Positions 651-15,614 of a stretch of DNA of 44,435 nt are shown here, in pieces. The notes below the pieces were generated by a model. The model was given only the letters and a program-made list of their open reading frames with translations. It ran no database searches and had not been told where the DNA came from. The DNA lies in the IMG/VR virus record IMGVR_UViG_3300018057_000017, positions 1 through 44,435 of that record. One strand, written 5' to 3'. Origin of the DNA: a virus. A program made the translations under genes and the position numbers. Within the stretch, counting starts at the first letter, position 1. Every line of letters starts with the position of its first letter.

Positions 651-1769
651 ATGGCAGTTTATTACAATGAGATTGACCCATTTGCGGCGGCGTGGTTGCG
701 GGAACTGATTAAGGCGGGACATATCGCCAAAGGGGAAGTCGATGGCCGACCCATTAAGGAAGTCAAGAGCGACGAACTTCGCGGGTTCGCCCAATGCCAC
801 TTCTTCGCCGGGATCGGCGTGTGGAGTTACGCCCTTAGAGCGGCTGGATGGGCAGACGATACTCCCGTTTTTACAGGCAGTTGTCCCTGCCAGAGTTTCA
901 GTGCGAGCGGGAAGCGGGGAGGCTTCTCAGATCAGCGTCACTTATGGCCCGCATGGTTCAGGCTCATCCGAGAGCTACACCCTGACACAATCTTTGGCGA
1001 GCAGGTTGCGTCCAAAGACGGCCTCGCTTGGCTCGACGTTGTTTCGGCTGATTTGGAAGGAGCGGGTTACGCCATCGGGACGGCGGATTTGTGCGCTGCG
1101 GGCTTCGGGGCGCCGCACATCCGGCAGCGATTGTACTTCGTGGCCGAGTCCGCAGGCGTTCGATTCGAGTCCTTGCGAGAAATCAGGCGAAGCAATGAGC
1201 AGGGCAATGGCTGGGAGGGCGATTCCAGGGCGCAACGGCGGTCCACCAGCGAACCTTCGCGAGAAGGCGAAGCTGGCTGCATGGCCGACGCCGAACTGTA
1301 TGGACAGCCTACCAAGCGGGAATCTGGAGGAGCGCAAGACGAAAGGCGGCTGCATCAACCTGAAGGACGTGGCTCCGCTGGCGACCTGGGCGACACCGCA
1401 CAGCGAGGACTCGGAATGCGTGGGAGCACATCGGGGGAACGCGGACGGGCTGCACAGCCAGAGCAAACTAACGAATTGGACATCACCAACGTCGAGGGAT
1501 TGGAAGGGCGACAGTCGGAAGATGCAGGCCAAGGGACCGAAAGTGCCGGGCGGTGTAAGATTACCGGGCGAGGCTTTACTAACGGCTTCTGGGCCGACGC
1601 CGAATGGATCTGGTGCCGGGACCAAAAGTACCGGCCAGTTGAACCCGGCACATTCCCGCTGGTTACAGGGGCTACCAACCGTGTGGGACGATTGCGCGGC
1701 TATGGTAATTCCCTTACGGCGCCGGTCGCGGAAGAGTTTATAAGAGCATACATGGAGCTCAATCGATGA
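651..1769 (+). CDS. DNA (cytosine-5) methyltransferase, phage Dcm-like
   Basis: Probably methylates cytosine at C5 in phage DNA, most likely to evade host restriction. Visible motifs: motif I FFAGIG (residues 51-56, AdoMet binding), motif IV PCQ with catalytic Cys80, motif VI as GEQV (116-119) where ENV is usual, motif VIII IRQRLYFVA (157-165), and motif X around GNSLTAPVAEEFIRAY near the C terminus. Residues about 170-310 form a low-complexity region with repeated ADAxxxG/GDTxxxG units in the place of the target-recognition domain. A second long frame (742-1743) overlaps almost the whole gene. The stop overlaps the next gene's ATG (ATGA). Identity as a C5 methyltransferase is secure; the target sequence is unknown. 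Confidence 0.9.
   Translation: MAVYYNEIDPFAAAWLRELIKAGHIAKGEVDGRPIKEVKSDELRGFAQCHFFAGIGVWSYALRAAGWADDTPVFTGSCPCQSFSASGKRGGFSDQRHLWPAWFRLIRELHPDTIFGEQVASKDGLAWLDVVSADLEGAGYAIGTADLCAAGFGAPHIRQRLYFVAESAGVRFESLREIRRSNEQGNGWEGDSRAQRRSTSEPSREGEAGCMADAELYGQPTKRESGGAQDERRLHQPEGRGSAGDLGDTAQRGLGMRGSTSGERGRAAQPEQTNELDITNVEGLEGRQSEDAGQGTESAGRCKITGRGFTNGFWADAEWIWCRDQKYRPVEPGTFPLVTGATNRVGRLRGYGNSLTAPVAEEFIRAYMELNR
742..1743 (+). CDS. Overprinted reading frame inside the C5 methyltransferase gene
   Basis: An open frame of 333 codons, shifted relative to the methyltransferase. From about residue 75 it does not look like random shadow translation: it has a basic segment (TLFRLIWKERVTPSGR), then spaced units of the form W-x-S/T-P (WPSP, WPTP, WATP, WTSP), then a C-terminal LNPAHSRWLQGLPTVWDD. 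From memory, very similar proteins overlap Dcm-type genes in many phages, and an NP...LMG.P..W signature occurs at the C terminus of other phage Dcm enzymes. The WxTP units are the same DNA as the ADA/GDT units of the main frame. The start at 742 is uncertain because the first 70 residues look like shadow. Function unknown. Confidence 0.45.
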   Translation: MADPLRKSRATNFAGSPNATSSPGSACGVTPLERLDGQTILPFLQAVVPARVSVRAGSGEASQISVTYGPHGSGSSESYTLTQSLASRLRPKTASLGSTLFRLIWKERVTPSGRRICALRASGRRTSGSDCTSWPSPQAFDSSPCEKSGEAMSRAMAGRAIPGRNGGPPANLREKAKLAAWPTPNCMDSLPSGNLEERKTKGGCINLKDVAPLATWATPHSEDSECVGAHRGNADGLHSQSKLTNWTSPTSRDWKGDSRKMQAKGPKVPGGVRLPGEALLTASGPTPNGSGAGTKSTGQLNPAHSRWLQGLPTVWDDCAAMVIPLRRRSRKSL

Positions 1770-2386
1770 CGCGCCAACAAGAAGCGAGAAAATTAACCGA
1801 TGATGCGAAAAAACTCGTGCTTCAGATGGGCCGAACTCATCTCGCGCTGGGCAAGATATTCTCGCGGGTGAGGGATGGTAAGTTCTACAAGGAAGCCGGG
1901 TACGAGAGCTTCGCTGACTGGGCTCAGGCCGTGGCGGACATCGGTCGATCCTGGGCGTACACGCTGGCTGATCTTTACACTGAAGTCGAGGCAACGGTGC
2001 CGGCAGAAGCCATCCCGACGATCACGGTCGAGAATGCGAAGCTCCTGGTGAAGCTGCCCGAGAACAAGCGCTCTGACCCAACCACCTTGGCCGCCGCTCA
2101 GGAGATGACCGGCTCCGAGTTTCATGATTACGTGGACAAGGCGCATCCGGGCCTTCACATCGAGAAGCGCCACCATGAAACATATTGGCTGTCAGACGAT
2201 GACCACAAGATCGTGGAGATGGCGATCAAGCTGGCGATGGCGCGCTATGGGATGGCGACGAAATCCGAGGCGCTGGCGAAAATCTGCGAGGACTTTCTGA
2301 ACTCAGAAGGTGAAGAGATTCCCGGCAAGCAGGCCGACTCGCCTCTCATGCGGGACATAGTGGCAGCCACGGAAAGGGCGCAATGA
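1766..2386 (+). CDS. Hypothetical phage protein (206 aa)
   Basis: A 206-residue, helix-rich, charged protein. The segment after residue about 20 (LALGKIFSRVRDGKFYKEAGYESFADW) resembles the N-terminal region of phage and plasmid DNA-binding proteins in which a short 'effort per step, sized by coverage' helix pair precedes a DNA-binding helix, but I cannot assign a family. The start overlaps the methyltransferase stop (ATGA), and the stop overlaps the next ATG, so translation is probably coupled. There are no cysteine clusters or enzymatic motifs. A role in DNA binding or replication is a guess from context. Confidence 0.7.
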   Translation: MTRQQEARKLTDDAKKLVLQMGRTHLALGKIFSRVRDGKFYKEAGYESFADWAQAVADIGRSWAYTLADLYTEVEATVPAEAIPTITVENAKLLVKLPENKRSDPTTLAAAQEMTGSEFHDYVDKAHPGLHIEKRHHETYWLSDDDHKIVEMAIKLAMARYGMATKSEALAKICEDFLNSEGEEIPGKQADSPLMRDIVAATERAQ

Positions 2387-2706
2387 ATGATGGATATTGT
2401 GAAGCGCATTTAGTTAGAACGGGCGAGAAGATTCCTGTTTATAGGGTTAGCCTTTGCCGTGCGTGTTTTCAGGGCAAGGAATTAAAGACGGGTCAGACAG
2501 AGTTTACATCGGACGCTGGCAGCCAAGATCAAGAGCAACCAAACATTGCAACGTTAGAGCCGGTCGCAGATATACACGGAGACTCTAATGTCTGCTACGT
2601 GGTCACTGAGAAAAATGTAACTTGGCCTCCTAAAATAGAGACAGTTTTGAGATACCATAACTGGGCTACATATTTGGGGCTGCCACCTAAAGCGAAAAGG
2701 ATGTGA
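2383..2706 (+). CDS. Small Cys-containing hypothetical protein (107 aa)
   Basis: A 107-residue protein starting inside the stop of the upstream gene (ATGA). An N-terminal CEAH followed some 15 residues later by CRACF could bind one zinc ion (C-x2-H ... C-x2-C). The rest is polar with no motif I recognise. Its DNA reads more AT-rich than its neighbours by eye, which hints at separate acquisition. The stop is shared with the GTG start of the next gene (GTGA). Confidence 0.6.
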   Translation: MNDGYCEAHLVRTGEKIPVYRVSLCRACFQGKELKTGQTEFTSDAGSQDQEQPNIATLEPVADIHGDSNVCYVVTEKNVTWPPKIETVLRYHNWATYLGLPPKAKRM

Positions 2707-3053
2707 AACGATCAAGCATCCTCCGGAGCACTCCCATGAAGCGGGCGGCTTTCAGGCAAAGGCCGCGAAAGGCCAAGATCACGAAGTCGGGGCGCGTGAT
2801 TCTGTCGCGTGCTCAGTACGTGGTTCTCTGTCATGAGGTGTGGCTCCGGGATCATGGTGAGTGCCAAGTCAGGCATCAAGGTTGCTGGGGGAAGCTGCCG
2901 TATTTCTCGACGCGCTGGGTAGACCACATCATCAAGAGAAGTCAGGGCGGGAGCGACACACTTGAAAACACAAGACTGGGTTGCCCACCATGCCACGATT
3001 GGGCTGACAATCGAGGGGGCAAGCTGTCGGCAAAGCAGAAGGCTAGATCATGA
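2703..3053 (+). CDS. HNH endonuclease
   Basis: A 116-residue HNH-fold nuclease. It has a very basic N terminus (RQRPRKAKITKSGR), a central WVDHIIKRSQGG carrying the catalytic His pair region, LENTRLGCPPCHDWAD with the conserved Asn-to-His spacing, and paired cysteines for structural zinc. The length fits small phage HNH proteins, some of which stimulate terminase cutting. This one lies far from the terminase and beside a helicase and a methyltransferase, so a role in recombination or DNA processing is equally possible. GTG start overlapping the previous stop (GTGA); the stop overlaps the helicase ATG. Confidence 0.85.
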   Translation: MKRSSILRSTPMKRAAFRQRPRKAKITKSGRVILSRAQYVVLCHEVWLRDHGECQVRHQGCWGKLPYFSTRWVDHIIKRSQGGSDTLENTRLGCPPCHDWADNRGGKLSAKQKARS

Positions 3054-4438
3054 CCGAAAGTTATCAAGATTTCATAGAGCGAAAGTCTCAGCTTCAAGGG
3101 ATGGACGGCCTGAAAGCTAAATGGATTCCCAGCGTGATGTTCGACTTTCAGGCCTTCTTGACGGAGTGGGCTTTGTTGAGGGCTCGTGCCGCGATCTTTC
3201 TGGACTGCGGACTGGGAAAGACTTTGATGGAGTTCGTGTGGGCTCAGAATGTGGCAGAAGAAACCAACAAGCCGGTCTTGATTTCATGCCCCTTAGCCGT
3301 CAGCTACCAGATGCTCAAGGAAGCGAACAAGTTCGGAATAGAGCTGCATCGCTCGTCGGATGGGAAGGCGCATAAACCGATCACGGTCACGAACTATCAA
3401 CGACTTCATCTTTTCAATGAGGCTGAATTCTCGGGCATGGTGTGCGACGAGTCGGGCATTTTGAAAGGGTATGACGGCGCGACGCGGAAGATCATCACGA
3501 ACTTCATGCGCAAGATGAAGTACCGCTTGCTGGCGACGGCGACTCCGGCCCCAAACGACTACATCGAGCTCGGCAACTCGTCGGAAGCTCTCGGCTATCT
3601 TGGTTCACCGGAGATGCTGGTTCGGTTCTTCAAGAACGAGCAGAACAATTCTGATCAAAAGAGCAAATGGGTTGGCAAGGGCGGTGGGACTCCGAAATGG
3701 AGATTCAAGGGCCACGCGGAGGAGCATTTCTGGCGTTGGGTATGCTCTTGGGCACGGGCTGGACGAAAGCCATCTGATGTTGGTCAGTTCTCGGACGAGA
3801 AGTTCATTCTGCCCGGCCTGATTCAACGCGACTGGATTGTGGAGCCCAGGTCGTTGCCCGAAGGGAAACTATTTCAAGTTCCAGCTTTCAGCCTCTATGA
3901 GCAGCGCGAGGAGAGGCGCAGGACGATTCGCGAGCGGTGTGAGAAGGTTGCAGAATTGGTGTCGGAAAAGAGCCAGCGGCCGGCTGCCGTTTGGTGCCAT
4001 TTGAATCCCGAGGGGGATCTTCTGGAGAAGATGATTCCCGACTGCATCCAGGTCAAGGGTGCCGACAGCGACGATGAGAAGGAAGAGAAGTTGATGGCTT
4101 TCACCAACCTCCAAGCCGACTGCATCGTGAGCAAGAGCCAGATCGCCGGATGGGGCCTTAACTGGCAGCACTGTTGGCACCAGACCCACTTTCCAACCCA
4201 TTCGTTCGAGCAATGGTTTCAGTCCGTGCGCCGCTCTCTGCGCTTCGGTCAGACGCGAAAAGTCTTGCTCGATCTGATTTCAACCGAGGGCGAGAAGATC
4301 GTGATGGATAACCTGAAATCCAAAGCTGTCGCCGCTGACAGGATGTTTGATAGGATCGTGGCGCTGATGAGCAAAGAGCTGAAGATAAATCGCCGGGAGC
4401 AGTTTGATGAGGCCGAGATGATCCCGGCCTGGATGTAG
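3050..4438 (+). CDS. SNF2/DEAD-like superfamily 2 helicase
   Basis: A 462-residue SF2 ATPase. Motif I is DCGLGKT (residues 52-58), Walker B is a CDES variant (132-135) where DEAH or DEAD is usual, motif III is LLATATPAPND (about 160-169), and motif VI is in QSVRRSLRFGQTR. The motif VI spacing and the late QTR-type sequence are typical of phage SNF2-like helicases. It probably unwinds or remodels DNA in replication or recombination, in the cytoplasm. It sits between an HNH nuclease and a DNA methyltransferase, with ATGA coupling upstream, which resembles phage DNA-metabolism cassettes. Confidence 0.85.
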   Translation: MTESYQDFIERKSQLQGMDGLKAKWIPSVMFDFQAFLTEWALLRARAAIFLDCGLGKTLMEFVWAQNVAEETNKPVLISCPLAVSYQMLKEANKFGIELHRSSDGKAHKPITVTNYQRLHLFNEAEFSGMVCDESGILKGYDGATRKIITNFMRKMKYRLLATATPAPNDYIELGNSSEALGYLGSPEMLVRFFKNEQNNSDQKSKWVGKGGGTPKWRFKGHAEEHFWRWVCSWARAGRKPSDVGQFSDEKFILPGLIQRDWIVEPRSLPEGKLFQVPAFSLYEQREERRRTIRERCEKVAELVSEKSQRPAAVWCHLNPEGDLLEKMIPDCIQVKGADSDDEKEEKLMAFTNLQADCIVSKSQIAGWGLNWQHCWHQTHFPTHSFEQWFQSVRRSLRFGQTRKVLLDLISTEGEKIVMDNLKSKAVAADRMFDRIVALMSKELKINRREQFDEAEMIPAWM

Positions 4439-4449
4439 GAGAGGTGGTC

Positions 4450-5544
4450 ATGGCCGTTCAAGAGCAAAAAGTGACGGAACGATATGCGGTCTACCTCGGG
4501 GACGCCATCGAAGTTCTGAAGAACTTCCGAAAGGAATCCGTTCACCTTTCGATCTACTCCCCGCCGTTCGCCACTTCCGGGGGTGCCCTTTACAGGTATT
4601 CATCGAGCGAACGAGATATTTCAAACTCGTTGAGCTATGAGCAATTCTTCGATCATTATAGCTACCTAATGCATGAAGTGTGGAGGCTGACCATGCCGGG
4701 GCGAATCAGTGCGGTCCACTGCATGGACATCGCTTCTGGGAATACGGGCAACGATCATTTGACCGACTTCCCCGGTGACATTATCCGTCTCCACGCGGGC
4801 TGCCGCGAAAAAAACTGCAAGGCGAATCACTACGACCGCACGAGCGGAAAATGCGGACACGGCCTCTGGCATCACACCGGGCGCTACTGCGTCTGGAAAG
4901 AACCTCTCAAGGTGAGGAACAGGACGATGGCCAAGCATCTTTTCCACAAGGTTGCCGTGGAAGATTCGGCGCGTTGCAGCCCGGCTCTCGCCGATTATGT
5001 TCTGATTTTCAGAAAGAAGGGTGACAACGCGGTCCCGATTGCTCATCCACGCGGCCTGATCTATTATGCCGGAGAGCGCAAGCCCCCGGCAGACGTGCTT
5101 CATTACAAGGGCTGGAAGGGGGATCAGATTCAGAACAGATACTCGCATTGGATTTGGCGTCAATATGCGTCTGCCTTTTGGGATGACATCCGCGTTGATC
5201 ACGTTCTGAAGCACCGGCAGGCTAGGGACGAGCAGGACGAGGACCATGTTCATCCGCTCCAACTGGACGTCATCGACCGGATCGTTACGCTCTGGTCGAA
5301 TCCTGGAGAGACCGTGTTGAGCCCATGCGCGGGAGTAGGCAGCGAAGTCTACGGAGCTCTGTGTAATGATCGGAGAGCCATCGGCGTGGAACTCAAGCCG
5401 TCCTATTATCGGATGATGCTGAAAAACATCTCTGAGGCTAAAGTTCGGGAAGATGATGACGAGCCGACCTTCAGTTTTTACGAGAAATCAACAGAGGGGG
5501 AAGTTGAGGATGTCGAAGCTGAAGAGGCCGAAGCAACCGCCTAA
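4450..5544 (+). CDS. DNA methyltransferase, N4-cytosine/N6-adenine type
   Basis: A 364-residue beta-class-order DNA methyltransferase. The catalytic SPPF (residues 37-40) comes first, and the AdoMet-binding motif I (SPCAGVGSE, about 295-303) lies near the C terminus. SPPF suggests N4-cytosine, but N6-adenine cannot be excluded. An insertion with several Cys and His residues (CREKNCKANH ... CGHG ... HHTGRYC, about 113-142) looks like a zinc-binding module. The C-terminal tail is acidic. ATG 4450 is favoured over GTG 4444 because GGAGAGG lies just upstream. It probably modifies phage DNA against restriction. It overlaps the start of the next zinc-ribbon gene. Confidence 0.85.
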   Translation: MAVQEQKVTERYAVYLGDAIEVLKNFRKESVHLSIYSPPFATSGGALYRYSSSERDISNSLSYEQFFDHYSYLMHEVWRLTMPGRISAVHCMDIASGNTGNDHLTDFPGDIIRLHAGCREKNCKANHYDRTSGKCGHGLWHHTGRYCVWKEPLKVRNRTMAKHLFHKVAVEDSARCSPALADYVLIFRKKGDNAVPIAHPRGLIYYAGERKPPADVLHYKGWKGDQIQNRYSHWIWRQYASAFWDDIRVDHVLKHRQARDEQDEDHVHPLQLDVIDRIVTLWSNPGETVLSPCAGVGSEVYGALCNDRRAIGVELKPSYYRMMLKNISEAKVREDDDEPTFSFYEKSTEGEVEDVEAEEAEATA

Positions 5545-10412: not shown

Positions 10413-11270
10413 ATGGCCCGAACTTGGTCCGCATCCCCGAACGCTTTAGCGGAAAGAATTGAACGACTGAAGCCGGGGGAAGAATATCTTGAGACAGTAT
10501 ATGGTGCCGATGGGCAGCCAACCGGCACGAGCATATTCGATGCCACCCTCTGTGAATTGATCTATCGCTGGTTTTGCCCTCCCAAGAGCAAAGTACTCGA
10601 CCCCTTCGCTGGGGGGAGTGTGCGTGGAATAGCGGCGGGCATCTTGGGCCTTGATTACGTGGGAATCGAGCTATCAAAGGGCCAGCTTGAGGCCAACCGA
10701 AAGCAAGCAAAGGATATTCTGAGTACTGGGGCGAACGGCTGGGCGGGAAAGAAAAGCTTTGGTCGAGTGCAGTGGATTGAAGGCGACGCCCTGAAAGCAG
10801 CGGTCCTCGCGCCGGGTAGCTACGATCTCATCTTCTCCTGTCCACCTTATGGGGATTTGGAGGTTTATTCGGATGATCCGCGCGATCTCTCCACAATGCC
10901 CCACGATAAATTCCTGGAGGCATACCGCCAGGTGATCCGCGTCTCTTGCGGAATGCTGAAGCCTAATCGCTTTGCCTGCTTCGTGGTGGGAGATTATCGT
11001 GACAAGCAGGGCTTTTACCGAAACTTCGTGAGCGATACGATTGCAGCTTTTGAATCAGCCCACATGAAGCTCTATAACGAAGCTATTTTGGTGACGGCGG
11101 TGGGAAGTCTGCCCATCCGCATCGGGACGGCCTTTGGGAAGTACCGCAAGTTGGGAAAGACCCATCAAAATGTGCTGGTGTTCTATAATGGCGATGTGCG
11201 GGAAATCCCAAAGGAATTTCCTGAGATTGAAGTTGTTGAGTTGGCATCTGCCTCGATAGAAGAATCGTAA
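10413..11270 (+). CDS. DNA methyltransferase, C-terminal half of the ParB-methylase locus
   Basis: A 285-residue AdoMet-dependent methylase. Motif I is LDPFAGGSVRGI (residues 62-73), motif IV is SCPPYGDL (142-149), and VGIELSKGQLEANR gives the acidic AdoMet-contacting residue. TGTSIFDATLCELIYRWFCPP before motif I is the typical joining segment of ParB-methylase fusions. ATG 10413 is preceded by GGTGGAAGAAAGG. The coding frame extends further upstream (LDDTSQRILKGGRKA) to the GGCA repeat, so the ATG may be internal to an older, longer gene. Target base not known; CPPY is typical of N6A/N4C enzymes. Confidence 0.8.
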   Translation: MARTWSASPNALAERIERLKPGEEYLETVYGADGQPTGTSIFDATLCELIYRWFCPPKSKVLDPFAGGSVRGIAAGILGLDYVGIELSKGQLEANRKQAKDILSTGANGWAGKKSFGRVQWIEGDALKAAVLAPGSYDLIFSCPPYGDLEVYSDDPRDLSTMPHDKFLEAYRQVIRVSCGMLKPNRFACFVVGDYRDKQGFYRNFVSDTIAAFESAHMKLYNEAILVTAVGSLPIRIGTAFGKYRKLGKTHQNVLVFYNGDVREIPKEFPEIEVVELASASIEES

Positions 11271-11332
11271 AGCATGGGAAGCGATTTAAATCCCGCCTTG
11301 TAAATCATCCCCATAGCTGCTATATCTGACGC

Positions 11333-11941
11333 ATGGCCCCGCGCAAGCTCGACCTGAGAACCCGCCAGCGACTAATGAAGTCGAGGATGGGGAAGGCGCC
11401 CAAGCGCCAGCCTCCCAAGGTCAAGAAACCTGTCGGCAGGCCGCCCATGTACAGCAAAGACAAGGCGGCTCGCATCTGCATCGAGATCGCCACGACGACC
11501 CGCAGCCTGAAGGACATCTGCGACAGCAATCCTACCTTTCCAGACCCAAGGACAGTTTATAAATGGCTTTCCTTGAATGAAGAGTTCAGGCAGATGTATC
11601 AATCAGCCAAGCAGGATCAGGCTCAGATTCTGGCTGACGAGCTGATCGCGATAGCCGACACTCCCAAGCACGGGCAAGTCATAACGGCGTGGCCCGGTCA
11701 GAAGGATAGGGCCGGGAATCCCAAGCCAAAAGAGATCAAGGTTGCCGACATGATCGAGCACCGACGCCTTCAGATCGAGACGCGGCGCTGGCTGCTCTCA
11801 AAGCTCAGGCCGAGGGAGTATGGCGACAAGATCGAGGTGACTGAGGGAAGCGACCCACTGCAAGAGCTTCTGGACGCATGGCGCGAGGAGCACGCTCAGC
11901 AGGTGAAAAAGGAACAATCCAGTGTCAAGCCAGCGACTTAA
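11333..11941 (+). CDS. terS: Terminase small subunit
   Basis: A 202-residue protein that would recognise phage DNA and start packaging. The basic N terminus (KRQPPKVKKPVGRPP) is followed by a helix-turn-helix-like region, AARICIEIATTTRSLKDICD...TVYKWLSLNEEF, typical of small-terminase and transposase-type HTH domains. The middle region (ADTPKHGQV...KVADMIEHRRLQIETRRWLLSKLRPREYGDK) matches the oligomerisation part of this family. It overlaps the start of the large subunit by about 20 bases, the usual arrangement. A 60-base AT-rich gap precedes it. Confidence 0.85.
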   Translation: MAPRKLDLRTRQRLMKSRMGKAPKRQPPKVKKPVGRPPMYSKDKAARICIEIATTTRSLKDICDSNPTFPDPRTVYKWLSLNEEFRQMYQSAKQDQAQILADELIAIADTPKHGQVITAWPGQKDRAGNPKPKEIKVADMIEHRRLQIETRRWLLSKLRPREYGDKIEVTEGSDPLQELLDAWREEHAQQVKKEQSSVKPAT

Positions 11942-14072
11942 CTTCGGAGAGAGACTTGGAAGGTTCGCCAAAACCCCTCCCGAAGAAGACTGCAAGCTCA
12001 GCATCCTAGAAGGCTCCGTCCGGTCAGGCAAAACTTGGGCACAGCATGCTAAGATTCTTTGGGGCTGCCGGTACAACGTCGCCGGATGGAAGGTTCTCAC
12101 TGGAGTAACCAAAGACACCGTTTTCAAGAATGTGCTCAACGATCTGTTCTCTTTGATCGGTCCCCACAGGTACTCTTACAACCATCAATCCGGGCTGCTG
12201 AGAATCGACCGCTCGACATGGACGGTGATGGGAGCGAAGGACGAGGGCTCGGAGAAGTTCATCCGCGGGTTGACCGTTGGTTACGTGGTCTGCGACGAGC
12301 TCTCGCTGATGCCCTTCGAATTCCTTCAAATGCTCATCACGCGCATGTCGCCGGAGGGGGCGCGGCTCTACGGCAGCACCAACGCTGACACGCCTCTTCA
12401 TCCTCTGAGGACAGAGATCCTGGACAACCAGAAGCTGACGGACGCCGGGCTGCTGTACTCGATGCATTGCACGATGGACGATAATCCGAATCTCACGGAA
12501 GAGTACAAAAAATCTCAGGAGCTTCTGTACACTGGGCTTTTCTATCAGCGCTACATCAAGGGCTTGTGGGTGATGGCCGAGGGCGTGATCTACAGAGACG
12601 CGTGGAAAGACGAGAGCACGTTCACGGACAAAGACTTGCCTGTCGGCTTGATGTGGGGCGGACAGACTCGTGAGCGCGTTATCTCGGTCGATTACGGAAC
12701 GGTGAACCCGAACGTGTTTCTGGATTGGCGCGATGATGGAGTGACGGCCTGGTGCTACAATGAAAAACGTTGGGATTCCGCCAAAGAGATGAAACAGAAG
12801 ACGGATTCTGAGCTTGCCGACGACTTGTACGAGTTCACGGAGCATGACCAATCTCCTCAGATCGTGGTCGATCCCAGCGCGGCCAGCTTCAAGCAGGAGC
12901 TGACGAACCGAGGCTGGTGGGTGACGGATGCCGTGAACGACGTTCAGTCTGGCATTTCAAAAACTTCCACCGCGCTGGCCAAAGGTGTGATAAGGTTTCA
13001 CCGTGACAACTGCAAGGCGACGATCGCCGAGTTCCAAACATACGCCTGGGACCCTAAGAGGGCGCTGCGCGGGATCGAGGAGCCAATTAAATCTGGCGAT
13101 CATGGATGTTTTATAGCAGGAACGAAAATCATGACTCCTGATGGCGAAAGAAATATTGAAGAGTTCCGTGCCGGAGATCGTGTCCTTACTCCCCTCGGTC
13201 AGTGTAAAGTCCTTACAGTCCGAGAAATTCCCGACCAGCAGATTGTCGAGTGGCATCGCTTGCGAGGACTGCCGAATCATCCAATCGCTACGAGAAAAGG
13301 CTGGACAAGGATTGATGCCACGAGATATAATGAGCAAGTATGCGAGTGGAATCCAGAACATTCAACGGTATCATTTTCAGGCGCTATCCAGAAGCTAAAG
13401 ACTGGTCTAGCCGCAATTATTTCAGGCCGAGCCAGGTTCATGGTCGTAAGAGAGTGGAGAGCCTTCACCGGGAAGTGTGGAAAAAATATCATGGTGCTAT
13501 TCCAAAAGGCTATGATGTTCATCACGCGGATGATGATACCGGAAACAATGACATCACCAATCTGGAATTGTTGCCCGGGCCTATTCATGATTCGCTTTCT
13601 GGAAAGAAAGCATCTCATGATTTCGAGCACCTTGCCAGAATACGGCCACTGGCTAAAGCATGGCACGCATCACCAGAAGGATTGGACTGGCATCGAGATC
13701 ATGGGAAAGAAGCGATGCAAAAACGCAAGGCTGTTGGATTCATCTGTCAGAACTGCGGTGCGCATTTTCTTTCGAAACAGCGCGGCGAATGCGCTAAATT
13801 CTGCTCTAACAAGTGCAAGTCGGCTGCCAGGCGTAAATCGGGCGTGGACGATGTTCCCAAGATTTGCGCGACATGCAGCGAGACTTTCCTCGCTAATAAA
13901 TATCAAAGAATCCTCAATTGTCCAAAGTGCCGTTAAAGATGCTGGCAGAGCAAGTGTCTTTGCACTGAGAACGGAGCATGGGTGCTATTATGCGAATGGC
14001 ATCCTTGTTAGCAATTGTGACGCGGCCAGATATTTCTGTGCCACCAAGATTCCGGTCTGGCGGCTGATGTGA
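11922..14072 (+). CDS. terL: Terminase large subunit with intein (716 aa precursor)
   Basis: The packaging motor ATPase and nuclease. Walker A is GSVRSGKT (residues 31-38) and Walker B is VVCDE (122-126). The extein resumes at the last nuclease motif, which in the family reads DHxxDAxRY; here GDHG is followed by an intein (residues 396-698) and then CDAARY. After splicing the protein would be 413 residues. Without splicing the conserved Asp of the nuclease site is displaced, so the precursor should be inactive as a nuclease. GTG start, overlapping TerS. An HNH gene lies inside the intein in another frame (13340-13936). Confidence 0.9.
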   Translation: MSSQRLNFGERLGRFAKTPPEEDCKLSILEGSVRSGKTWAQHAKILWGCRYNVAGWKVLTGVTKDTVFKNVLNDLFSLIGPHRYSYNHQSGLLRIDRSTWTVMGAKDEGSEKFIRGLTVGYVVCDELSLMPFEFLQMLITRMSPEGARLYGSTNADTPLHPLRTEILDNQKLTDAGLLYSMHCTMDDNPNLTEEYKKSQELLYTGLFYQRYIKGLWVMAEGVIYRDAWKDESTFTDKDLPVGLMWGGQTRERVISVDYGTVNPNVFLDWRDDGVTAWCYNEKRWDSAKEMKQKTDSELADDLYEFTEHDQSPQIVVDPSAASFKQELTNRGWWVTDAVNDVQSGISKTSTALAKGVIRFHRDNCKATIAEFQTYAWDPKRALRGIEEPIKSGDHGCFIAGTKIMTPDGERNIEEFRAGDRVLTPLGQCKVLTVREIPDQQIVEWHRLRGLPNHPIATRKGWTRIDATRYNEQVCEWNPEHSTVSFSGAIQKLKTGLAAIISGRARFMVVREWRAFTGKCGKNIMVLFQKAMMFITRMMIPETMTSPIWNCCPGLFMIRFLERKHLMISSTLPEYGHWLKHGTHHQKDWTGIEIMGKKRCKNARLLDSSVRTAVRIFFRNSAANALNSALTSASRLPGVNRAWTMFPRFARHAARLSSLINIKESSIVQSAVKDAGRASVFALRTEHGCYYANGILVSNCDAARYFCATKIPVWRLM
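13107..14015 (+). other. Intein within terL
   Basis: 303 codons with clear splicing blocks. Block A is CFIAGTKIMTPDGERNIEEF with the nucleophilic Cys, block B is GLPNHPIATRKGW (the NHP of TxxH-type blocks), and the C-terminal end is GCYYANGILVSN followed by Cys of the extein. It sits exactly at the catalytic-Asp motif of the TerL nuclease. The splicing parts occupy about the first 80 and last 30 codons. The 190 codons between look like nonsense in this frame, because the DNA there encodes an HNH protein in the -1 frame; yet the intein frame contains no stop. Confidence 0.85.
13340..13936 (+). CDS. HNH homing-type endonuclease nested out of frame in the intein
   Basis: A 198-residue protein with an HNH core: LHREVWKKYHG, then YDVHHADDD (His61-His62) and DITNLELLPGPIHDSL (Asn73), the layout of phage homing HNH enzymes. 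Two CxxC-type zinc-binding pieces follow: CQNCGAHF...CSNKCKSAARR and CATCSETF...CPKCR. Its ATG lies at the end of the intein's N-terminal splicing domain and its stop at the start of the C-terminal one. It probably cleaves intein-less terL and spreads the element. The ribosome-binding site is weak, so translation may need re-initiation or frameshifting; it could also be a frameshifted relic. Confidence 0.75.
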   Translation: MRVESRTFNGIIFRRYPEAKDWSSRNYFRPSQVHGRKRVESLHREVWKKYHGAIPKGYDVHHADDDTGNNDITNLELLPGPIHDSLSGKKASHDFEHLARIRPLAKAWHASPEGLDWHRDHGKEAMQKRKAVGFICQNCGAHFLSKQRGECAKFCSNKCKSAARRKSGVDDVPKICATCSETFLANKYQRILNCPKCR

Positions 14073-14081
14073 GGCGTTGAC

Positions 14082-15614
14082 ATGCCGAAAGCCAAGAAGC
14101 ACAAGAAGCAAACTCCCTCCAAGAAATCTCCAGCCATCGTTCAATCTCTTGATTCCAGGGACGGCCTGTCCGTTGGCTTCGATTACTTCCGCAACCTCGC
14201 GGCCAGGATGGGCTATGGCACGCCGTCGCTTGCCGAGGGCACAGAATACGAGATGGTCAGGCTGAGCAACGATTACTGGCTCATGCTGACCCTGTACCGA
14301 AACCATTGGATCTCGCGGCGCATCGTCGATCTTCCTTCTGACGACATGACCAAGTCGTGGTGCCATCTCACTTCCCAGCTCCCCCCTGATGACATACAGA
14401 AGTTTGATCGCGTGGTAGAGCGGACGTTCACGCCGCTGAAGATCAACCAAGCTATCAAATGGTCTAGACTGTACGGCGGTGCAGGTGCGCTGATTCTCGT
14501 CAAGGGGCATGAGAGTAAGCTGGCGGAGCCCCTGGACTTGGACGAGGTGAATCCGGGAAGTTATCTGGGCTTGATTCCCTTTGACAGGTGGAGCGGAATC
14601 TGGCCGAAGGGGAACGTTGCTCAGGACATCGAGCGTCCGCTCGAATGGGGATTGCCTGAAATGTATGAAGTTACTCCGCCGGGCGGATCGGTCACGTATG
14701 ACGTTCACACGAGCCGCATCCTCAGATTCACCGGACCGGAAGTTCCGAAACCCGAGAACCAAGCGCAACTGTACTGGGGCATCTCCGTTCTTGAGATTGT
14801 GTACGAGGAACTGCGCAAGCGGGACAACGCCTCGTGGTCGATCCTGCAACTTCTTTTTCGAGCTCAGATTCTTGCTCAGCGCAACAAGGAACTAGCCCAA
14901 CTTTTGTCGGGCGTAGGCATGAGCCAAAAGGCGCTCCAGATGTTCGAGGCGCGCATGAACGCTCAGAACCAGCTCCTGTCGAACCAATCCATGCTCATTC
15001 TGGGAGAGGACGGCGAACTTCAGAGCCATCAGTTCACGTTCAGTGGTCTGGCCGAAGTTTACGCTCAGTTTCAGATGGATGTGGCAGGAGCAGCGGAGAT
15101 TCCGGTCACGCGGTTGTTCGGGCGCACGATCACGGGCCTCGGGCAGTCGAACGATGCCGACGAGCGCATCTACGAGGAGAAAATCGCGCACGAGCAGCAG
15201 GACAAGCTGAAGCCGCAGCTCACCAAGCTCTATCCCGTGATCTGCATGAGCGTGCTGGGGGAAGTGCCGGACGACCTGGACTTCAAGTTTCCGTCTGTGC
15301 GCGTGTTGACCGAGGAGGACAAGTCGGAGATGACGACCAAGGCGTCAGCTCCCATCATCGCCTCATACAACGCTGGCATCACGGGTCGCAAGACGACTCT
15401 CAAGGAGCTTCGCGAGCTATCCGACAAGACGGGCGTGTTCACCAACATCACGGACGAGCAGATCGACAAGGCAGAAGAGGAGCCGGAGCTGCCGGGAGAA
15501 GGCATGGAGGGGGAGTTTAGCCGGGTCAACCCGCAGCGCGAGGAGAGGAAGCTGGCGCAAGGAGCGATGGATTCGGAACCATCGAAGACCGACACTGTTG
15601 AGACGCGAGATTGA
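14082..15614 (+). CDS. Portal protein (DUF1073-type)
   Basis: A 510-residue portal, the dodecameric ring at the capsid vertex through which DNA is packaged. Sequence features match the DUF1073 portal group: YWLMLTLYRNHWISRRIVDLPSDDMTK near residue 70, RLYGGAGALILVKG (about 130), and IPVTRLFGRTITGLGQSNDADERIYEE (about 345). It directly follows terL, the standard order. Basic N terminus, charged and disordered C terminus with several acidic residues. Some DUF1073-related entries are named for an anti-CBASS domain in other proteins; I see no support for that activity here. Confidence 0.85.
   Translation: MPKAKKHKKQTPSKKSPAIVQSLDSRDGLSVGFDYFRNLAARMGYGTPSLAEGTEYEMVRLSNDYWLMLTLYRNHWISRRIVDLPSDDMTKSWCHLTSQLPPDDIQKFDRVVERTFTPLKINQAIKWSRLYGGAGALILVKGHESKLAEPLDLDEVNPGSYLGLIPFDRWSGIWPKGNVAQDIERPLEWGLPEMYEVTPPGGSVTYDVHTSRILRFTGPEVPKPENQAQLYWGISVLEIVYEELRKRDNASWSILQLLFRAQILAQRNKELAQLLSGVGMSQKALQMFEARMNAQNQLLSNQSMLILGEDGELQSHQFTFSGLAEVYAQFQMDVAGAAEIPVTRLFGRTITGLGQSNDADERIYEEKIAHEQQDKLKPQLTKLYPVICMSVLGEVPDDLDFKFPSVRVLTEEDKSEMTTKASAPIIASYNAGITGRKTTLKELRELSDKTGVFTNITDEQIDKAEEEPELPGEGMEGEFSRVNPQREERKLAQGAMDSEPSKTDTVETRD

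Follow-up and report, generated by a model that had tools for sequence, protein, structure and literature searches.

An HNH endonuclease gene nested out of frame in a predicted TerL intein: a family-wide and apparently mobile arrangement

Introduction

Inteins are usually described as one protein, with splicing and endonuclease domains read in one frame. Dassa et al. reportedly described, in 2009 (cited in PMC10448857), fractured genes in which the two halves of a split intein are separated by an endonuclease gene, a set to which we take the gp41-1 intein to belong. Among mycobacteriophages, every TerL intein studied to date is located in the ATPase domain, and LAGLIDADG endonucleases are present in the two that have been assayed for cleavage (PMC5050341). 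An HNH gene that is out of frame with its host has been described for ShiLan, where it is inserted in a mycobacteriophage methylase gene with its own start and stop, the host frame being free of stops; about ten phages carry the insertion, its disjunct distribution suggests homing, and no ribosome-binding site was found (PMC11855218). The ShiLan insertion has neither intein splicing motifs nor a Hint fold and is thought to be retained in the protein, the host methylase being dispensable (PMC11855218). Our literature search for a similar arrangement returned only the ShiLan papers, together with a 2025 preprint on a 'non-canonical architecture' of actinophage inteins (10.1101/2025.01.02.630785), which may overlap with the present work.

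Here we analyze a stretch of viral DNA of 44,435 nucleotides (IMG/VR record IMGVR_UViG_3300018057_000017), called the window below, in which the gene for the terminase large subunit (terL) contains an intein and, in another frame at the usual endonuclease position, an HNH gene. The element resembles the ShiLan insertion in having its HNH in another frame and a host frame without stops; it differs in that the host frame is a recognizable Hint intein in the essential TerL, in its Shine-Dalgarno (SD)-like starts and in having 80 or more relatives. A scan of a phage collection returned no mycobacteriophage record with the window-type HNH. Like the fractured genes, the element has a free endonuclease gene where an intein carries its endonuclease, but in the fractured genes the host gene consists of two ORFs and splicing occurs in trans, whereas terL in the window is one unbroken ORF (11922-14072) that overlaps the endonuclease gene; the fractured arrangement occurs in 12 homologues of the window HNH and not in the window.

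A Hint domain, an endonuclease between blocks B and F and the logic of homing are common to this element and bifunctional inteins, as is the TerL host in the cases of PMC5050341. In contrast to these, the endonuclease of the window is out of frame and presumably translated separately, and the insertion site is the DAxRY motif of the nuclease domain. Free HNH genes adjacent to terL in Acinetobacter phage BP10, Pseudomonas phage PAE1 and Salmonella phage Shemara belong to the same HNH family (38-42% identity among the matches listed) and lie in the same neighborhood, but these phages have no intein and their HNH lies outside an intact terL. Group I introns with an HNH ORF of the I-HmuI type likewise hold a separately translated HNH inside a self-removing element, and 1u3e is the sole PDB profile match of the window HNH (E 0.0097). 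They differ in that removal of the window element is predicted at the protein rather than the RNA level, and no intron was detected in the region (no Rfam match at E ≤ 1).

Results

The terL frame and the intein that it encodes comprise the following features:

11922-14072, plus strand: TerL ORF, a single open frame of 716 aa, open through 13107-14015
11922..13106, plus strand: TerL N-extein up to ...SGDHG, comprising the ATPase domain and the larger part of the nuclease domain; matches TIGR01547 phage_term_2 and phrog_2
13107-14015, plus strand: whole intein with splicing blocks at both ends; first residue Cys, last residue Asn, then Cys
13107..13346, plus strand: N-terminal Hint part, intein residues 1-80, with C1 nucleophile and degenerate block B; supported by Hint_2, AF2 and a gp41-1 profile match
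13362..13922, plus strand: read-through middle, intein residues 86-272, without structure (pLDDT <50) or stop, with the HNH in the other frame
13923..14015, plus strand: C-terminal Hint part, intein residues 273-303, with terminal Asn303; supported by pLDDT and conservation in relatives
14016..14072, plus strand: TerL C-extein CDAARYFCATKIPVWRLM and stop; +1 Cys, which is Pro (CCC) in the empty allele

The N-extein matches TIGR01547 phage_term_2 with E 4.4e-24 (NCBIfam) and phrog_2, terminase large subunit, with E 2.9e-36 (PHROGs). In the terL frame the intein runs from C1 FIAGTKIMT... to ...YYANGILVSN^C, and C1, N303 and the +1 Cys, the hallmarks of a class 1 Hint-type intein, are found in the window as well as in its relatives, among which the C-terminal Hint pattern VYxLTV...HEFFANGILVHN^C is kept. 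Pfam Hint_2 matches the intein with E 8.6e-08. The AF2 model has a pLDDT of 86-98 across residues 1-80 and of 97 across residues 281-303 (about 95 for both Hint ends), and Foldseek places its Hint fold with that of the gp41-1 intein (6qaz, E 6.7e-05), the closest solved relative by profile (E 7e-19) and by fold. The splicing blocks that the initial annotation had recognized at both ends of the insert are thus confirmed, and its impression that the central 190 codons are unlike protein agrees with the AlphaFold model, in which nearly all of residues 86-272 have a pLDDT <50. Five IMG/VR contigs from other metagenomes contain the same intein with 100% amino-acid identity and zero nucleotide differences inside it. 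A pair of sequencing indels as the source of the frame shift, the artefact that had been envisaged, is ruled out by these five further contigs.

In the window, block B reads LPNH instead of TxxH, with His58 kept and Leu in place of a Thr that is nearly invariant among relatives; about 12 residues upstream of the block-B motif are absent in comparison with relatives, and the penultimate intein residue is Ser, where relatives have His. Given the loss of the block-B Thr and of the 12 or so residues, together with the penultimate Ser, the window's own intein may splice poorly. The LPNH block, the missing strand and the Ser would also fit an element that has decayed in the window phage, with TerL being made, the intein splicing poorly or not at all, and selection acting on the HNH alone. 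We consider such decay unlikely: six contigs preserve an intact intein frame, the element also occurs in a recombinant with a different backbone, C1, N303 and the +1 Cys are retained between Hint ends predicted at a pLDDT of about 95, and, TerL being essential, a non-splicing insert beside the DAARY nuclease motif should be lethal.

The HNH frame adds the following features to the same DNA:

13328..13333, plus strand: tandem HNH-frame stops TAA TGA, two codons before the ATG (from sequence and frame translation)
13340..13936, plus strand: nested gene for a predicted HNH homing endonuclease, 198 aa plus TAA, in the -1 frame relative to terL
13463..13600, plus strand: HNH catalytic region (H61, H62, H83, N74), from alignments A1 and A5
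13745..13930, plus strand: two Cys4 zinc-finger-like motifs, C136/C139/C155/C159 and C176/C179/C194/C197, invariant columns in A1 and A5

This gene matches PF13392 HNH_3 (E 4.4e-14) and phrog_15471 (E 7.5e-32), and its product is modeled by AF2 as a well-folded protein (pLDDT 94.5); a full 198-residue HNH protein in the -1 frame, as first proposed, is therefore well founded. The H-N-H catalytic motif is present, with H61/H62 and H83 invariant and N74 nearly invariant in alignments A1 and A5. A Foldseek search of the PDB with the model returned no significant match and a weak fold match to I-HmuI (E 0.49). Where a bifunctional intein would have its endonuclease in frame, the window has it in the -1 frame, and the intein frame is disordered there.

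The HNH start in the window reads TAA TGA GCA AGT ATG and has a weak Shine-Dalgarno site of -2.7 kcal/mol. Across the family, nested HNH genes begin with ATG (69), GTG (8) or TTG (2), often directly behind HNH-frame stops. Mean anti-SD pairing at these starts is -4.7 kcal/mol, versus -2.2 kcal/mol at internal ATGs of the same precursors (p 4e-12), and approaches the value of -6.4 kcal/mol found for free-standing and split homologues. Internal initiation thus appears well supported for the family and less so for the window copy. Programmed ribosomal frameshifting, which would fuse the N-intein to the HNH, would suit the -1 offset between the frames, phages commonly shifting in this direction. 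However, the HNH-frame stops that lie a few codons before the HNH start in many nested members leave little overlap for slipping and make entry from upstream unlikely, and the ATG, GTG and TTG starts have enriched SD sites; we regard frameshifting as highly improbable.

The intein sequence directly before nested HNH starts often reads DALRYGD (e.g., L027, L103 and L116), and the window has IDATRYNE at 13313-13330. The likeness of this sequence to the DAxRY motif at the TerL insertion site may be a trace of the original HNH insertion, or else a coincidence with the usual L..GD motif.

Homologues were collected by two viral-contig scans, one genome scan and one phage-record scan, all with the HNH, which yielded 142 HNH hits outside the window's own allele set and 107 non-redundant homologues, the window HNH being counted among the latter. 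In 80 of the 107, the HNH is nested out of frame in a TerL intein, at an identical offset and with 0 stops in the intein frame, whereas the third frame of the nested loci contains 4-40 stops; the remaining 27 have 1-15 stops in the corresponding frame. An in-frame intein fusion of this HNH was found in none of the 107. The comparison of related TerL inteins for which the initial annotation had called accordingly places the HNH out of frame in 80 cases and in frame in none, and homologues with an intein frame full of stops, which would have spoken against its reading, are only a minority, which are split inteins. Pfam searches of 61 precursors found Intein_splicing in 57, Terminase_3 in 40 and Terminase_6N in 34, and the junctions follow the form C1 (or S) ... 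N^C/S throughout the family. Insertion points cluster around the TerL motif H-x-x-D-A-x-R-Y, after H, Hx, D or DA. For scanning with the N-intein we used seven closer N-intein parts, the 20-part alignment being too diverse for this purpose.

The gene family occurs in several further states. A free HNH lies beside an intact terL in BP10, PAE1 and Exiguobacterium phage vB_EauM-23, and on the opposite strand in Shemara. Mini-inteins without an HNH occupy the same TerL sites in L158, L160-162, L166 and others. In L171 (1321-1938) and L173 (2444-3061), the HNH is cut down to its last zinc finger and the intein frame remains open and in phase across the scar; in L025 (2398-3015), a stop codon breaks the nested HNH while the intein frame above it is still open. 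Finally, in 12 homologues terL is broken into one ORF with the N-intein and another with the C-intein, the HNH lying between the two, and these are predicted to splice in trans:

Split-intein homologues: L059 (Lactobacillus phage CL2, KR905067) 506-2849; L019, L043, L046, L050, L072-L075, L077, L126, L137

The split intein of CL2 is annotated merely as a terminase and an HNH endonuclease. By analogy with these 12, the window too could hold a trans-splicing split intein, its precursor normally being cut or re-initiated to give separate N and C halves on either side of the HNH. This has very little probability in our view, as one open frame joins both halves in the window and in 79 others, and the avoidance of stops would be needless for a split intein.

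The initial annotation had also taken the openness of the intein frame as a sign of selection. For the window sequence alone this argument is too weak: the probability of a stop-free intein frame over the HNH is 0.18 when the gene's own synonymous codons are shuffled and 0.065 with the codon usage of the window, and alternative frames of other window genes are open for up to 726 nt. It holds for the family, where no stop is found in 80 nested homologues. In shuffles of 40 nested loci, a set that includes some redundant loci, 115 stops (own codons) or 273 stops (composition) were expected versus 0 observed, while 18 non-nested homologues have 1-20 stops, near the shuffle expectation. Judged by these sequences, the family-wide openness of the intein frame is decisive and beyond chance. 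An HNH gene in an RNA intron within the intein, with an intein frame that is open by chance, is scarcely credible: group I introns often bear free HNH ORFs, and the openness of the window sequence alone lacks significance, but a search of the region against Rfam gave nothing at E ≤ 1, the intein frame is open in 80 of 80 nested relatives, and deletion (L171/L173) or breakage (L025) of the HNH has left this frame open and in phase.

In close nested pairs, the third codon position of the HNH diverges most, as in L116/L146 with values of 0.11, 0.13 and 0.35 for positions 1, 2 and 3. The divergence pattern matches that of free homologues, although the HNH third position falls on position 2 of the intein codon. 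The read-through segment retains an identity of 0.54-0.61 in close nested pairs where the HNH retains 0.78-0.80. Taken together, these patterns indicate that amino-acid selection acts on the HNH and that the intein frame is merely kept readable. An amino-acid function for the read-through segment is unsupported, as this segment changes more rapidly than the HNH frame and is modeled as unstructured.

In the HNH tree, all nested genes fall in one group of 90 rows (SH-aLRT 95, quick search) together with 7 free and 3 split members, and most split and several free members fall outside it. Distances between HNH genes correlate with those between inteins given the extein distances (partial Mantel r 0.45). 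The grouping, this correlation and the states found suggest that the composite has a long history, moves as one unit and decays both ways. In L086 (~120-171), L090 (~3420-3464) and L091 (~600-649), the free-standing HNH that directly follows an intact terL is preceded by another copy of a DATRY-like motif, similar to the motif targeted in TerL.

Out-of-frame nesting was also found with another enzyme. In L209 (1365-2435), a TerL intein at the Walker B site, its frame open for 250 codons, holds a different, zinc-finger-rich HNH in its +1 frame, and in L217 (1460-2062) a TerL intein at this site retains only a remnant of the HNH. These loci suggest a second origin of nesting. A different HNH_3 protein in L232 is in frame in a ribonucleotide reductase intein, the conventional layout.

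Some loci hold further elements. A single TerL ORF in L044 (1399-5814) contains two Intein_splicing stretches and in-frame LAGLIDADG domains in addition to a nested-HNH intein, and the TerL ORFs of L206 (1007-4297) and L198 (80-3673) contain a nested-HNH intein and another Intein_splicing stretch elsewhere. In L229 (2516-3679), a gene for a GIY-YIG-like endonuclease lies in another frame between the intein halves, with stops in the intein frame.

To examine mobility, we compared the window with two further contigs. L237, retrieved by a scan with the TerL N-extein, is an intein-free relative that reads DHG^PDAARYF where the window reads DHG^(intein)^CDAARYF. L236, from another metagenome, is nearly identical to the L237 backbone throughout the well-aligned stretch from about 10600 to 13034, and then carries the window alleles at 7 of 7 informative sites in 13040-13106, an intein 100% identical to that of the window, and the window alleles at 17 of 17 informative sites in 14016-14216. 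The three-way alignment places the breakpoint as follows:

13035..13039, plus strand: recombination breakpoint interval of L236, with L237 alleles to 13034 and window alleles from 13040

The breakpoint lies 66-72 bp from the intein insertion. An assembly chimera was rejected as its source, as the switch from recipient to donor alleles takes place within 6 bp, less than any assembler word. L236 stops at window position 14243, 228 bp past the intein, so that a return to the recipient backbone on the 3' side would be beyond view. The pattern in L236 is as predicted by homing with co-conversion, which would include the change from Pro+1 (CCC) to Cys+1 (TGT) that is needed for splicing; a single crossover near the intein would look alike. 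The element is apparently mobile, and the nested HNH enzyme probably spreads the intein.

Discussion

The locus is very probably a composite homing element, that is, a cis-splicing intein combined with a separately translated, out-of-frame HNH gene at the usual endonuclease position. The reading is drawn from sequence: from the architecture and its conservation in the family, the absence of stops, selection on the HNH frame, the start signals and the recombinant with its nearby breakpoint. The mini-intein with a free HNH gene in another frame that was first put forward for the window thereby gains the support of recurrence in at least 80 non-redundant loci, and the SD-enriched starts, the HNH-less and HNH-eroded inteins and the set of donor, empty and recombinant alleles fit it further. 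The finding of an HNH nested in an intein is, on these comparisons, real and family-wide, and the element apparently mobile; splicing, internal initiation and target cleavage we infer, within the constraints that the data place on the mechanism.

With the intein at the nuclease-domain end of TerL, one mRNA would be read in two ways. Ribosomes coming from the terL start would cross the HNH DNA in the intein frame and yield a precursor with a disordered loop of about 190 residues between the Hint halves, from which the intein would excise itself and so restore TerL. Ribosomes starting inside the intein would make the HNH protein, which would cut intein-free terL alleles, and repair would copy the element in. 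The middle of the intein frame would be held only stop-free and in phase, with amino-acid selection on the HNH frame.

Two proteins would thus come from the same DNA, a selfish gene residing inside an essential one without being fused to it. The intein would need only to stay stop-free, and the endonuclease could evolve as a free enzyme. We think it somewhat more probable than not that out-of-frame nesting is general, old and repeatedly evolved, with one HNH lineage occupying the -1 frame at many TerL sites and an unrelated zinc-finger HNH the +1 frame at a Walker-B site, and that it links free endonuclease genes, mini-inteins and split inteins in one cycle; the link to split inteins arises because an intein whose frame is no longer open would have to become split. 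The arrangement suggests a way, open to test, in which mini-inteins could acquire a homing gene and split inteins could originate, and with one gene family occurring in free, nested, eroded and split form it can serve as a natural experiment on how overlapping genes evolve. Annotation pipelines conceal the endonuclease under 'terminase large subunit', for example in the cultured phages Highwayman and TJE1.

Elsewhere in the window, genes predicted to encode three DNA methyltransferases (of the C5 and N6/N4 types) and a ResIII/SNF2-like helicase lie at 651-5541 and 10413-11267.
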